This document shows, piece by piece, positions 13,681 to 26,831 of a stretch of DNA of 64,000 nt. Position numbers and translations under genes: made by a program. The notes beneath the pieces were generated by a model. That model worked only from the letters and a program-made list of their open reading frames with translations, ran no database searches and was not told the DNA's origin. Each line of letters begins with the position of its first letter. The stretch's first letter is position 1. Source of the DNA: Streptomyces sp. NL15-2K (GTDB lineage Bacteria; Actinomycetota; Actinomycetes; Streptomycetales; Streptomycetaceae); NCBI RefSeq assembly GCF_030551255.1, contig NZ_CP130630.1:12089001-12153000 (forward strand). The letters run 5' to 3'.

Positions 13681-14559
13681 TCAGGGGAGTGCGGTGGCGG
13701 TACGGCCCGATGTGACACGGAGGAGGTCGAGATTTCCCGCGTCGCTGCTTCCCATCGCTGCCGTGTAGGTGACCATGCGCAGGTCGGCGCCGGGGACGAT
13801 GAGGACGTCGCAGTCGAGCAGGATGTCGCCGATCTCCGGATGCCGGATCGTCTTGCGGTCGGTCGTGTGCTGGATGGCGGCCGTCTGCGTGGCCCAGAGA
13901 CGAGCGAACGCGTCGGAGACCTCTCGCAGTTCCTGCACGAGACGACCGAGCTGGGCGTCCGCGGGGTAGCGGGACACGGCGTCTTTGAGGTCGGCGACGA
14001 TCGACGCCTCGAACGCGTCCTGTCCCCGCTCGGACCGGACGTCGAGCATCGCGGCGTGCGCGGCGCCGTTGCCGAACAGGGCGCGGGCGAGGTTGCGTTC
14101 GGTGGTCGGTACAAGGGCGGGGTCGCCGTGCAGGGCGCTCCACGTGGTGTTCCACCACACCAGGGTCCAGTCGGCCGTGAACACGCCGATCGGGACGTCG
14201 CCCAAGCGCGCGGCGAGCCGCTGGATCCCCGGCGGCACATGGGTGCTGACCGTCCCGTCCTGGGGCGGCAGAAGCCCGGCGCTCCGGTACAGCTGGTCGC
14301 GCTCGGTGCGGGAGAGCTGCAGGGCCCGGGCGAGGGCGCCGACGACCTGGCCGGAGGGGTTCTTCGCGCGTGACTGTTCCAGACGCAGGACGTAGTCGAC
14401 GGAAAGCCCGGCCAGCTGCGCCAGTTCCTCGCGGCGCAGCCCCGGTGCGCGACGGCCGTCCGTGACGGTGAAGCCGGCGTCGGTCGGACAGAGGCGGTCG
14501 CGCCAGGTGCGCAGGAGCGCGGCGAAATCGGAGCGGGAGTCCGAGCGGGAGGAATCCAT
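13681..14559 (-). CDS. XRE-type regulator with MmyB-like ligand domain
   Basis: A 292-residue transcription factor. The helix-turn-helix (about residues 10-80) includes APGLRREELAQLAGLSVDYV and LRLEQSR. The C-terminal MmyB/PAS-like domain (about 110-270) has DWTLVWWNTTWSALHGDP, a fold that in relatives binds fatty-acid-like ligands. These regulators usually sit divergently from a short-chain dehydrogenase they control. Here the dehydrogenase (16419) has been pushed 1.7 kb away by an IS110 insertion, so the native intergenic region is split. The start at 14559 gives the normal family length. Confidence 0.88.
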   Translation of the reverse strand: MDSSRSDSRSDFAALLRTWRDRLCPTDAGFTVTDGRRAPGLRREELAQLAGLSVDYVLRLEQSRAKNPSGQVVGALARALQLSRTERDQLYRSAGLLPPQDGTVSTHVPPGIQRLAARLGDVPIGVFTADWTLVWWNTTWSALHGDPALVPTTERNLARALFGNGAAHAAMLDVRSERGQDAFEASIVADLKDAVSRYPADAQLGRLVQELREVSDAFARLWATQTAAIQHTTDRKTIRHPEIGDILLDCDVLIVPGADLRMVTYTAAMGSSDAGNLDLLRVTSGRTATALP

Positions 14560-14671
14560 GGGTTCATTCTCGCCGCGCGGCGCAGCGTCAGCCTGGGTAC
14601 TGCCAGTCCTAGTGACGGGGACGGCACTGGTTGGCGTCGGCGCAAGTGGCGAACGTGGAGTTGTGCCCGAG

Positions 14672-14720
14672 CCGGGCGCCATCGCCTGACGTTGACCGGG
14701 CGCCATCGCCTGACCGTTGA
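14672..14720. repeat. 24-25 bp tandem duplication at the IS110 left flank
   Basis: CCGGGCGCCATCGCCTGAC-GTTGA is followed directly by CCGGGCGCCATCGCCTGAC-CGTTGA. The two units are identical apart from one added C. The second unit ends four bases before the left end of the IS. It lies in the former XRE-SDR intergenic region. Confidence 0.8.
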
Positions 14721-14728
14721 GGAGCCCC

Positions 14729-14995
14729 GTTACCTTTTTCGTGGCCCCGCAATGGGGCGCCTGGCCCCCGGGTCCGGTATGGCTGTGTGCCCCCTGTCGT
14801 ACGGATGACCTGGGGGGTGTTGCCGCCGGGCTTCGGGGCACCGCTTGACCGCTGATGAGGGGCCTGACGACCGCCTGGTCCGGCGCAATGCCGGGCCGTT
14901 TCACTGGTGGCATGTCTGCGTAACGTGGTTGCCGGCGTGTGGTGCCGCAGGGACGGCCGGGAGTTGAGGAGACGAGTGGCGAGGGGCACGCGTAC
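14729..14995 (+). ncRNA. candidate IS110 bridge RNA region
   Basis: The long non-coding left end of IS110-group elements encodes the bridge (seek) RNA that pairs with target and donor DNA. Here it holds strong hairpins and guide-like segments. GCCCCC (14789-14794) and GGGGGGTG (14812-14819) flank a small stem, and both fit a G-C6 target such as the two sites occupied. GGGGCACC (14835-14842) equals the element's right end, and GTAACGTGG (14920-14928) nearly complements its left end CCCCGTTAC. The pairing is by eye and the run of C/G allows chance matches. The same region is repeated in copy 2. Confidence 0.35.
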
Positions 14996-16219
14996 ATGGT
15001 CGACACGACCGCGATAGATCTTTTCCTCGGCCTGGACCTGGGCAAGGAGTTCCACCACGCCCACGGCCGGACCGAAGACGGCAGAACCGTGCACGACAAG
15101 CGGCTGCCCAACACCGAGCCGAAACTGCTGGAGCTGTTCACCAGGCTGGTGGCGAAGTTCGGCACTGTCCTGGTGATCGTGGACCAGGTCGCCAACATCG
15201 GCGCGCTGCCGCTGACGGTGGCCCGCGCGGCCGGCTGCCGGGTGGCCTACCTGCCCGGGCTGTCGATGCGGCGGGCCGCCGACCTGCACCCGGGCGAGGC
15301 CAAGACCGACGCCCGCGACGCGTTCGTGATCGCCGAGACCGCCCGCACCATGCCGCACACCCTGCGCGCGGTGGACCGCGACGACGAGGTGCTGGCCGAG
15401 CTGACCATGCTCACCGGCTACGACAACGACCTGGCCGGCGAGGTCAACCGCGCCACCAACCGGCTGCGCGGCCTGCTCTCTCAGATCCACCCCTCTCTCG
15501 AGCGTGTGCTCGGCCCGCGCCTGGCCTACCCCTATATCCAGGCGCTCCTCCAACGGCACGGCTCCCCGGCGAGACTGAGGAAACTGGGCCGGGCCCGCTG
15601 CGAGGCCCTGCTCAAGGTGCACGGTTCGCGCAAGGCCCACCACCTGACCGCAGAGATCTTCGACGCGCTCGCCGAGCAGACCCTTGTCGTGCCGGGCACC
15701 GAGGCATCCGCGCTGATCGTGCCGGGACTCGCCGCCCAGCTCGCCGCCGCCCACACCCAGCGCCGCCAGGCCGAGCAGGAGATCGCCGCCCTGCTGGAGG
15801 CCCTCCCTCTTTTCCACCTCCTGACCTCCCTGCCCGGCCTGGGCGTCAGGACCACAGCGGCCGTGATCGTCGCGATCGGCGACGGCACCGGCTTCCCCAC
15901 CGCCGGACACCTCGCCTCCTACGCCGGACTCGCCCCCGCCACGAAGTCCTCGGGCACCTCCATCCGCGGCGAGCACGCACCCCACCGCGGCAACCGGCTC
16001 CTCAAACGCGCCCTGTTCCAGGCCGCGTTCGCCGCGATCGGCTGCAAAGCCGACCCGTCCTCCCGGATCTACTACGACCGGCAACGCGCACGCGGCAAGA
16101 CCCACACCCAGGCGATCCTCCGCCTGGCCCGCCAGCGCGTGAACGTCATCCACGCCATGATCCGCACCGGGGCCCTCTACGAAGCACGCACCCCGAACGA
16201 CGTCGACCTCGCCGCCTGA
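14996..16219 (+). CDS. IS110-family transposase (DEDD recombinase), copy 1
   Basis: A 407-residue IS110 transposase. The RuvC-like N-terminal domain shows Asp14 in FLGLDLGKEF, Asp63 in VLVIVDQVANIG (Glu in most relatives), and Asp105/Asp108 in AKTDARDAFV. The C-terminal transposase_20 domain has LTSLPGLGVRTTAAVIVAIG and the presumed nucleophilic Ser322 in SSGTSIRGEH. The ATG at 14996 begins at the family's usual N-terminus; an upstream GTG at 14939 would add 19 atypical residues. The protein is the same as that of the copy at 25337-26560, which implies recent movement. Confidence 0.93.
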   Translation: MVDTTAIDLFLGLDLGKEFHHAHGRTEDGRTVHDKRLPNTEPKLLELFTRLVAKFGTVLVIVDQVANIGALPLTVARAAGCRVAYLPGLSMRRAADLHPGEAKTDARDAFVIAETARTMPHTLRAVDRDDEVLAELTMLTGYDNDLAGEVNRATNRLRGLLSQIHPSLERVLGPRLAYPYIQALLQRHGSPARLRKLGRARCEALLKVHGSRKAHHLTAEIFDALAEQTLVVPGTEASALIVPGLAAQLAAAHTQRRQAEQEIAALLEALPLFHLLTSLPGLGVRTTAAVIVAIGDGTGFPTAGHLASYAGLAPATKSSGTSIRGEHAPHRGNRLLKRALFQAAFAAIGCKADPSSRIYYDRQRARGKTHTQAILRLARQRVNVIHAMIRTGALYEARTPNDVDLAA

Positions 16220-16418
16220 CGACTCCACCGCCCCTACCCTCCAAGCCCCATCACGCCCGCGCACCGGCACGGCCACTCCGGCCCTGCCGGCCACCGGGAT
16301 GCCCATCAGCCACCCGATCCGCCAGGAACATCCCGCTTCGCGGGACGTTCCCGAAAACCACGATCAACCCCTACAAGCCGACCCCCCGGGGTTGACGAAA
16401 CAGATAGGGGCACCCCCC

Positions 16419-17369
16419 ATGCAGCACACCATCGTGATGACGGGCGCGAGCCGCGGGATCGGCCGCGTCGCCGCGGAGCACCTCCTGTGCCGGTCGCCGG
16501 ACGTGCACCTGCTCGTCGTCGCCCGAGGCTCCTCCGGCGCACAACTCGCCGCGGAACTCGCCACGGGCGGGCACACGGTCTCCCACGTCTCGGCGGACCT
16601 CTGCTCGCTTCCCAGCGTCCGCTCGGCCGCCACCGGGATCCGCGACCGGCTCGACAAGGGTGAACTCCCGCCGCTGCGCGGCTTCGTGGGCAACGCGGGC
16701 ACGCAGTACACGAACGCGCTCACCGAGACACCCGAAGGTTTCGAGTCCACCTTCGCCGTCAACGTACTCGCCAACCACCTGTTCGTCCGCCTGCTCCAGG
16801 ACCGCTTCGCCGCGCCCGCCCGAATCGTGATCACCGCGAGCGACACCCACTTCGGCGACTTCAGGCACAACATGGGCATGGTGCCCGGCCCGGCCTGGAA
16901 GTCCCCGGACGTCCTCGCCCGCACTGGCGCCTTCCCCGAACCGGACACCACGACCGCCGGGCGCACCGCGTACTCGACGAGCAAGCTGGCCGCCCTCTAC
17001 CTCGTGCACGAGTACGCGCGCCGCCTGCCGGCCGGGATCGACGCCGTCGCCTACAACCCGGGCTTCGTCCCCGGCACCGGCCTCGCCCGCAACGCAGGGC
17101 CCGTCTCCCGGTTCGCGATGCGGCGCATCCTGCCGGTGATGACCCTCACGCCGTTCGCCACCCGCCGCAGCGCCGCCGGCCGCTACCTCGCCGACGTCGT
17201 CCTGGGCACGACCCAGGCACCGACCGGCTCCTACGTCGACCGCGGCCGTGCGGACCGCTCGTCGCAGGAGTCCTACGACCCGCAGCGCGAGCGTGAACTG
17301 TGGGATGCCGCCGAACAGCTCACCGCCGCGTACGCCGCCGGGGCGGATGGGCTCTCAGATGACTTCTGA
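16419..17369 (+). CDS. short-chain dehydrogenase/reductase
   Basis: A 316-residue SDR of the retinol-dehydrogenase/protochlorophyllide-reductase-like group. It has the cofactor motif TGASRGIG at the N-terminus, VGNAGTQ for the NAG motif, the active-site Ser in ITASDTH and the YSTSK Tyr-Lys pair. The native ATG at 16419 directly follows the right end of the IS110 copy. Its original GAGGAG site is now on the far side of the element. Translation must rely on AGGGG inside the IS (16406-16410) or on an in-frame start within the IS at 16299. The protein itself is intact. It is the usual partner of the divergent XRE regulator. Confidence 0.88.
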   Translation: MQHTIVMTGASRGIGRVAAEHLLCRSPDVHLLVVARGSSGAQLAAELATGGHTVSHVSADLCSLPSVRSAATGIRDRLDKGELPPLRGFVGNAGTQYTNALTETPEGFESTFAVNVLANHLFVRLLQDRFAAPARIVITASDTHFGDFRHNMGMVPGPAWKSPDVLARTGAFPEPDTTTAGRTAYSTSKLAALYLVHEYARRLPAGIDAVAYNPGFVPGTGLARNAGPVSRFAMRRILPVMTLTPFATRRSAAGRYLADVVLGTTQAPTGSYVDRGRADRSSQESYDPQRERELWDAAEQLTAAYAAGADGLSDDF

Positions 17370-25137: not shown

Positions 25138-26831
25138 GGGGGGTGCCCCTATCTGTTTCGTCAACCCCGGGGGGTCGGCTTGTAGGGGTTGATCGTGGTT
25201 TTCGGGAACGTCCCGCGAAGCGGGATGTTCCTGGCGGATCGGGTGGCTGATGGGCATCCCGGTGGCCGGCAGGGCCGGAGTGGCCGTGCCGGTGCGCGGG
25301 CGTGATGGGGCTTGGAGGGTAGGGGCGGTGGAGTCGTCAGGCGGCGAGGTCGACGTCGTTCGGGGTGCGTGCTTCGTAGAGGGCCCCGGTGCGGATCATG
25401 GCGTGGATGACGTTCACGCGCTGGCGGGCCAGGCGGAGGATCGCCTGGGTGTGGGTCTTGCCGCGTGCGCGTTGCCGGTCGTAGTAGATCCGGGAGGACG
25501 GGTCGGCTTTGCAGCCGATCGCGGCGAACGCGGCCTGGAACAGGGCGCGTTTGAGGAGCCGGTTGCCGCGGTGGGGTGCGTGCTCGCCGCGGATGGAGGT
25601 GCCCGAGGACTTCGTGGCGGGGGCGAGTCCGGCGTAGGAGGCGAGGTGTCCGGCGGTGGGGAAGCCGGTGCCGTCGCCGATCGCGACGATCACGGCCGCT
25701 GTGGTCCTGACGCCCAGGCCGGGCAGGGAGGTCAGGAGGTGGAAAAGAGGGAGGGCCTCCAGCAGGGCGGCGATCTCCTGCTCGGCCTGGCGGCGCTGGG
25801 TGTGGGCGGCGGCGAGCTGGGCGGCGAGTCCCGGCACGATCAGCGCGGATGCCTCGGTGCCCGGCACGACAAGGGTCTGCTCGGCGAGCGCGTCGAAGAT
25901 CTCTGCGGTCAGGTGGTGGGCCTTGCGCGAACCGTGCACCTTGAGCAGGGCCTCGCAGCGGGCCCGGCCCAGTTTCCTCAGTCTCGCCGGGGAGCCGTGC
26001 CGTTGGAGGAGCGCCTGGATATAGGGGTAGGCCAGGCGCGGGCCGAGCACACGCTCGAGAGAGGGGTGGATCTGAGAGAGCAGGCCGCGCAGCCGGTTGG
26101 TGGCGCGGTTGACCTCGCCGGCCAGGTCGTTGTCGTAGCCGGTGAGCATGGTCAGCTCGGCCAGCACCTCGTCGTCGCGGTCCACCGCGCGCAGGGTGTG
26201 CGGCATGGTGCGGGCGGTCTCGGCGATCACGAACGCGTCGCGGGCGTCGGTCTTGGCCTCGCCCGGGTGCAGGTCGGCGGCCCGCCGCATCGACAGCCCG
26301 GGCAGGTAGGCCACCCGGCAGCCGGCCGCGCGGGCCACCGTCAGCGGCAGCGCGCCGATGTTGGCGACCTGGTCCACGATCACCAGGACAGTGCCGAACT
26401 TCGCCACCAGCCTGGTGAACAGCTCCAGCAGTTTCGGCTCGGTGTTGGGCAGCCGCTTGTCGTGCACGGTTCTGCCGTCTTCGGTCCGGCCGTGGGCGTG
26501 GTGGAACTCCTTGCCCAGGTCCAGGCCGAGGAAAAGATCTATCGCGGTCGTGTCGACCATGTACGCGTGCCCCTCGCCACTCGTCTCCTCAACTCCCGGC
26601 CGTCCCTGCGGCACCACACGCCGGCAACCACGTTACGCAGACATGCCACCAGTGAAACGGCCCGGCATTGCGCCGGACCAGGCGGTCGTCAGGCCCCTCA
26701 TCAGCGGTCAAGCGGTGCCCCGAAGCCCGGCGGCAACACCCCCCAGGTCATCCGTACGACAGGGGGCACACAGCCATACCGGACCCGGGGGCCAGGCGCC
26801 CCATTGCGGGGCCACGAAAAAGGTAACGGGG
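25138..26831 (-). mobile_element. IS110-family insertion sequence, copy 2
   Basis: 1,694 bp in inverted orientation to copy 1, with the same ends and an identical-length layout; the two look identical wherever compared. It lies within a G-run (C-run in the element's orientation) of the permease gene. The run is now eight C's on the left side and ten on the right, against four and six at copy 1. The site read in the element's direction is GGCG followed by C's, similar to the G-C6 context of copy 1. Confidence 0.9.
25337..26560 (-). CDS. IS110-family transposase, copy 2
   Basis: 407 residues, the same protein as the copy at 14996-16219, with Asp14, Asp63, Asp105, Asp108 and Ser322 all present, so presumed active. 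A long open frame on the opposite strand of this region is a high-GC shadow and encodes nothing recognisable. The gene is antisense to the interrupted permease. Confidence 0.93.
   Translation of the reverse strand: MVDTTAIDLFLGLDLGKEFHHAHGRTEDGRTVHDKRLPNTEPKLLELFTRLVAKFGTVLVIVDQVANIGALPLTVARAAGCRVAYLPGLSMRRAADLHPGEAKTDARDAFVIAETARTMPHTLRAVDRDDEVLAELTMLTGYDNDLAGEVNRATNRLRGLLSQIHPSLERVLGPRLAYPYIQALLQRHGSPARLRKLGRARCEALLKVHGSRKAHHLTAEIFDALAEQTLVVPGTEASALIVPGLAAQLAAAHTQRRQAEQEIAALLEALPLFHLLTSLPGLGVRTTAAVIVAIGDGTGFPTAGHLASYAGLAPATKSSGTSIRGEHAPHRGNRLLKRALFQAAFAAIGCKADPSSRIYYDRQRARGKTHTQAILRLARQRVNVIHAMIRTGALYEARTPNDVDLAA

Follow-up and report, generated by a model that had tools for sequence, protein, structure and literature searches.

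A bridge-RNA-type guide in a Streptomyces IS110 element that very likely steers insertion into C-runs

Introduction

How an insertion sequence might be led into homopolymer runs is the question raised by a locus of Streptomyces sp. NL15-2K, where a stretch of 64,000 nt (the window) holds two copies of one IS110 element, each in a run of C or G. Bridge RNAs in IS110 left ends, the order of their guides and the covariation of these guides with donor and target are described in PMC11208160, which predicts such RNAs in 85.7% of IS110s. Similarly, PMC11187229 describes upstream seekRNAs and their natural redirection in ISXne4 and ISMch6. An earlier note on this DNA had proposed that the left end of the element encodes a bridge RNA, and comparative structure, covariation of guides with element ends and natural retargeting among relatives all fit that proposal. 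The element very likely carries a bridge-RNA-type guide that steers it into C-runs, given relatives in which insertion sites and ends changed along with the guides (features in Table 1).

Table 1. Features of the IS110 element in the window, with positions counted from the first base of the window.
Feature	Position	Strand	Basis or remark
IS110 copy 1	14725..16418	+	1,694-nt perfect repeat
IS110 copy 2	25138..26831	-	features mirrored: position = 41556 minus copy-1 position
Right donor (RD) GTTAC, start of left end	14729..14733	+	sequence, relatives
5ʹ hairpin GCCCC/GGGGC before target loop	14744..14758	+	paired by eye; present in relatives
Bridge-RNA two-loop region	14767..14942	+	covariance model R1 match; predicted extent, not RNA ends
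Target-binding loop	14770..14833	+	RNAalifold, comparative pair test
Target-loop outer stem	14770-14777/14826-14833	+	RNAalifold consensus
Target-loop inner stem	14780-14783/14822-14825	+	RNAalifold consensus
Left target guide (LTG) GCCCCC	14789..14794	+	C5 part supported, G not
Target-loop apical stem	14796-14799/14806-14809	+	RNAalifold consensus
Right target guide (RTG) and handshake-like segment CTGGGGGGTG	14810..14819	+	8 nt 14812-14819 complementary to right end CACCCCCC
Left donor guide (LDG) AGGGGC	14858..14863	+	tracks right end
Right donor guide (RDG) GTAACGTGG	14920..14928	+	RDG/left-end switch in relatives
Recombinase gene	14996..16219	+	PF01548 and PF02371
TTGAC	16392..16396	+	kept at nearly constant distance from right end in listed relatives
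Left donor (LD) AGGGGC in right end	16406..16411	+	partner of LDG
Right-end C-run	16413..16418	+	read by target-loop 3ʹ arm; crossover inferred around 4th-5th C

The element and its insertion sites

The recombinase combines a DEDD domain (PF01548, E 1.6e-46) with a Transposase_20 domain (PF02371, E 2.2e-21), the domain pair of the IS110 family. Its matches in the PDB, IS621 (1.6e-12) and ISCro4 (6.1e-12), cover residues 261-422 only. The motifs GLD, KTDARDA and SSGTS are present and may correspond to the DEDD residues and catalytic serine of IS621; the second acidic residue occurs as VIVDQ, which is not aligned to IS621. The start at ATG 14996 was picked by inference, and the reading frame is open from GTG 14939. 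The gene is preceded by 271 bp that hold the covarying RNA and followed by about 200 bp. Judged from its sequence, the element belongs to the IS110 group, not to IS1111. The TTGAC close to the right end is possibly the −35 box of a circle-junction promoter; a convincing −10 box was not identified at the junction.

As the earlier note had it, the window copies are identical (100% over 1,694 nt); they form an inverted pair. The genome contains eight full copies, none of which has a mismatch to that in the window, and all eight lie in C-runs, in agreement with the homopolymer sites claimed for the two window copies. Runs of C or G of at least 5 nt cover only 710 of the 64,000 window bases (136 runs). 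The homopolymer target had also been called unusual, which would be true by comparison with the target sites that PMC11208160 and PMC11208158 describe for bridge RNAs but not within the clade, where most of the elements fetched are of the C-type.

One of the eight sites is a locally duplicated stretch whose second copy is unoccupied and reads T-CCCCCC-A, with 6 C. The occupied copy reads T-CCCC-GTTACC on the left and GGGGCA-CCCCCCC-A on the right, i.e., 4+7 C, so that 5 Cs are left for the circle junction if the duplicated runs were once equal. This in-genome empty site suggests that the circle junction holds about five Cs. With that number supplied by the junction, the target runs of the eight copies would have measured 5, 5, 5, 6, 13, 11, 10 and 10 C. 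The 1,694-bp unit would thus include target bases, and the Cs at its very ends (about 14725-14727 and 16417-16418) probably come from the target or were exchanged. A search of 100 relatives for empty sites homologous to that of copy 1 gave some match in 44 genomes, and the homologs viewed (L285-L287) had no C-run.

Copy 1 (14719-14728, 16419) has come to lie between a Shine-Dalgarno-like GAGGAG and the start codon (ATG) of a gene whose product has a TGASRGIG motif and is presumably SDR-like; an AGGGG of the right end of copy 1 stands 8 nt before that ATG. In Microbacterium sp. oral taxon 186 (L081, L082), long inverted repeats enclose the insertion in their loop, a setting that may be reminiscent of REP or terminator hairpins.

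Structure of the left-end RNA

Folding of the left end and a search with known models had been suggested as checks. A search of 14400-16800 against Rfam gave no match, and the single-sequence fold of the window RNA was no better than those of shuffled sequences (z −0.51; 56/200 shuffles equally good). The structural evidence is therefore comparative only. In an RNAalifold consensus of 40 aligned left ends of relatives, the first loop is enclosed by an outer and an inner stem and contains an apical stem, and the second loop has closing stems. The guide loops are thus both enclosed by stems, and that for the target precedes that for the donor, as in IS621. For the donor loop, this consensus gave no clear apical stem.

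Over 22 pairs and 40 sequences, 95.0% of cells were paired, compared with 86.1% after shuffling (0/500), in a test that excludes the LTG/RTG pairs and with shuffles that ignore relatedness. Pairs changed on both sides numbered 11 (7.5 in shuffles), the covariation score was 0.408 (0.238 in shuffles), and controls in which the structure was slid along the alignment reached 50.0% paired at most. The covariance model has matches in 42 of the 394 genomes of the class, some of which contributed to the model.

A separate IS110 of the same genome, 74% diverged, carries a group II intron-like insert inside its bridge-RNA gene at two loci (L281, C1:44900-50000; L283, C1:3971000-3976100). The insert begins with GTGCG, ends with AC, encodes reverse transcriptase and maturase domains, and lies in sense orientation in L283. 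It interrupts one strand of the stem closing the target loop, a break that splicing might in principle restore. A related copy (L282, C1:12213200-12216200) is without the insert, and at all three loci the donor guide is interrupted by another IS110 (346 aa). An Rfam search of the insert loci gave no match.

Donor guides and element ends

The donor guides covary with the ends of the element, as judged from the relatives. The LDG segment of the second loop, which follows CGCTGAT, reads GGGG, GAGG, GAGA, GGGA or GAAG, and the right end (ATA-NNNN-CA) reads likewise. By a reading rule that was fixed after the sequences were seen, 117 of the 120 distinct RNAs have an LDG tetramer equal to the LD (in shuffles, 38.1 on average and 59 at most); of the 214 model matches, 53 were without a right end found and 19 without an LDG, and the LDG of the window has one extra base beside it. 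The rule is broken by L124 and L128/L129. On a tree of 109 recombinases, all 7 LDG changes fall on a branch with the identical LD change, and at L124 one further LD change is unmatched by the LDG.

The earlier note had quoted its guide strings correctly, and its choice for the RDG (14920-14928) holds. The first base of the RDG fits the left end in 97 of 99 scored RNAs, G occurring with GTTAC (52) and A with GTTAT (45). The other 2 scored RNAs deviate, and a further 25 of the total of 124 were not scorable. This switch appears to be essentially one clade-level change. The LDG had been read as GGGGCACC at 14835-14842, where the string is indeed present. Of 127 distinct RNAs, just 12 have the 6-mer of the element's own right end in the corresponding stretch, each of them in the GGGG class; that candidate was rejected in favor of the covarying segment at 14858-14863.

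Such matches could also be the product of chance or shared ancestry in GC-rich DNA, as C and G runs are common (the 136 in the window) and relatedness inflates covariation. This explanation is scarcely credible and already largely refuted by the seven joint changes of LDG and LD on the tree and by four independent non-C guides that match at 6/6 positions.

Target guides and natural retargeting

In C-type elements, the arms of the target loop, CCCCC on the 5ʹ side and GGGGGGTG on the 3ʹ side, are mutually complementary. Among 120 distinct RNAs, positions −1 to 6 of the right end, which are CA and the six bases after it, match the target loop in 120, 116, 119, 115, 116, 112, 109 and 104 cases, and positions 7-9 in 20, 36 and 34, totals that the C-type majority makes weak evidence when taken alone. 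Interrupted or odd right ends occur in 13 elements with C guides. Two target guides around a small stem (14789-14794 and 14812-14819), aimed at a C-run, had been proposed for the window, and both structure and retargeting fit them. The target had been given as G-C6, of which the C-run stands and the leading G was rejected: in 144 left ends, none of the three guide bases before the C-run is followed significantly by the target (p 0.20, 0.09 and 0.16), the base next to the run giving p 0.20.

An enzyme that itself recognizes C-runs, with the left-end RNA as a structural or regulatory leader and its CCCCC/GGGGGG arms just a hairpin, would explain why C-type arms pair mutually in the predicted fold and why guide bases outside the run do not track the target. 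This is very unlikely in view of Arthrobacter MA-N2, whose recombinase is 83-85% identical to those of C-type Arthrobacter relatives and yet goes to ACGCTC, with both arms changed. The arms of these elements (L115 and others; 9 model matches in the genome) are GACGCTC and TGAGCGTG. Their left ends read ACGC[T/C]C-GTTACC in 8/8 readable cases, with GACGC in 6/8, and their right ends CACGCTCA in 6/6 readable cases, although several of these sites have more of their flanks in common, as would members of a single repeat family, so that they are not fully independent.

Three further elements carry changed guides. In L124, the arms are GACGCTC and TGAGAGTG, with GGACGCTC at the left end and CACTCTCA at the right end. 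L130 has the arms CTCCTCCT and GATTTGTG with the ends CTCCTCCC (left) and CACAAATC (right), and L225 the arms GCGCCCCT and AAAAAGTG with the ends TCGCCCCC and CACTTTTT, respectively. Mutual pairing of the arms is lost in L130 and L225, and both arms have kept their fit to the respective DNA end, which favors guides over a mere RNA stem and counts against recognition of C-runs by the recombinase itself.

With right ends located by a guide-independent anchor, the non-C guides of L115, L124, L130 and L225 match their own right ends (CGCTCA, CTCTCA, CAAATC and CTTTTT) at 6/6 positions after CA, and the left guides fit the left flanks. The right end of L225 was located without a pattern containing CTTTTT. 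Four CTTTTT right ends of another genome (G569) were not counted as independent, the search pattern having contained the predicted sequence (reversed control, 0). L227, at a contig end, was left out of the right-end comparison, and for the altered-guide RNAs L229, L230, L233, L234 and L238 right ends were not found in the fetched DNA. A comparison of guides with the insertion sites of related copies, suggested earlier as a check, finds changed guides together with changed sites in four relatives. On this comparison, target guides covary with insertion sites in the four non-C variants and not outside the C-run in C-types.

It could still be argued that the RNA mainly recognizes the element's own ends and that C-runs are chosen through homology between donor and target. 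The strongest evidence concerns the donor, the target loop has a 3ʹ arm that matches a right end made up partly of donor sequence, and target covariation is absent outside the run within C-types. This account is nevertheless unlikely, since in elements whose donor and target are not alike the left guides agree with the left flank of the target: target CGC versus donor CTC in L124, CTCC versus CAAA in L130, and CCCC versus CTTT in L225. Recognition of the target through the target guides remains the preferred reading, and there is high confidence that this is a bridge-RNA IS110, whose left-end RNA has covarying stems, an LDG that tracks the right end, and target-loop arms that, in relatives where the guides are altered, fit the left flank (5ʹ arm) and the right end (3ʹ arm).

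Crossover and proposed mechanism

Target-derived variation extends on the left up to about the 4th base before the C that precedes GTTACC and begins on the right at about the 4th-5th base after GGGGCA. These limits would place the exchange around the 4th-5th base. Immediately 5ʹ of it, the donor of L124, L130 and L225 is unlike the target, and the bases of this stretch agree with the 5ʹ arm in the target and with the 3ʹ arm in the donor. A fixed 2-nt core was rejected as inconsistent with L130 and L225, in which the bases near the 4th-5th position after GGGGCA, the putative core, differ between the left and right ends.

In the proposed mechanism, the element would be excised as a circle whose junction resembles GGGGCA-CCCCC-GTTACC. 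In a complex of recombinase and RNA, LDG and RDG would bind the circle, and a C-run of the genome would be bound by LTG (CCCCC) on the bottom strand and by RTG (GGGGGG) on the top strand. Donor and target would then be cut inside the shared C-run and the strands exchanged. Because a C-run allows several registers of donor and target, the number of Cs at each end would vary; because donor and target share the run, the target guides would be mutually complementary and the element's own ends usable as targets. Tandem copies, expected where C-run ends serve as targets, were seen at L041, L058, L072, L084 and L140, in which a second left end directly follows the right end.

A more specific reading, given about an even chance, is that the target loop has a dual role in this actinobacterial clade. 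Its 5ʹ arm would read the target, and its 3ʹ arm the 4-5 crossover-side donor bases together with the first target bases beyond, while the LDG stops short of the crossover. Such a dual role would lead donor and target to converge on one short sequence, usually a C-run, with self-complementary guides, a slipping crossover and use of the element's own ends as targets (tandem copies). Both the mutual pairing of target guides and the reading of crossover-side donor bases by an arm of the target loop would be unusual among bridge-RNA IS110s.

Comparison with known systems

IS621, as described in PMC11208160 and PMC11208158, resembles the present element in its domains (PF01548 and PF02371), in an RNA located in the left end before the gene, in the order LTG, RTG, LDG, RDG, and in a discontiguous RDG (GTAACG-T-GG). 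Also shared is a handshake-like segment 3ʹ of the RTG (PMC11208158), which has about 4-5 nt here and 2 in IS621. Unlike in that description of IS621, the enzymes of this clade measure 407-426 aa (about 326-328 in IS621), the target is a C-run, and the target guides are self-complementary. Moreover, from the alignments, the LDG appears to match the donor 5ʹ of the crossover-proximal bases, whereas that of IS621 reaches the core. The seekRNAs of ISEc21 and ISMch6 are likewise upstream and non-coding, with the bottom-strand match before the top-strand match, and one relative was naturally redirected; in the parts of PMC11187229 drawn on here, the target is a linear sequence in an IS3-family transposase gene and the donor guide is not the focus. 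The same paper assigns the subgroup that includes IS110 to the size class 395-455 aa, a size in which the Streptomyces IS110 proper resembles the present element. PMC12500396 mentions an IS110 in Kocuria.

In the titles and abstract openings of the open-access papers searched, no C-run-targeting IS110 was named. ISAar29 is, by its name, an Arthrobacter element. It might belong to the same clade, which has perhaps been described before. ISAar29 is one of the six structures in Durrant et al.

The clade forms a natural retargeting series (CCCCCC, CGCTCA, CTCTCA, CAAATC and CTTTTT). Its enzymes are moderately similar, and bridge-RNA pairing rules thereby become testable outside the IS621 branch. 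A homopolymer target would offer a simple and abundant landing site in GC-rich genomes, and a poorly specific one. If the extended handshake is real, donor and target specificity would be split differently in designs based on such enzymes.
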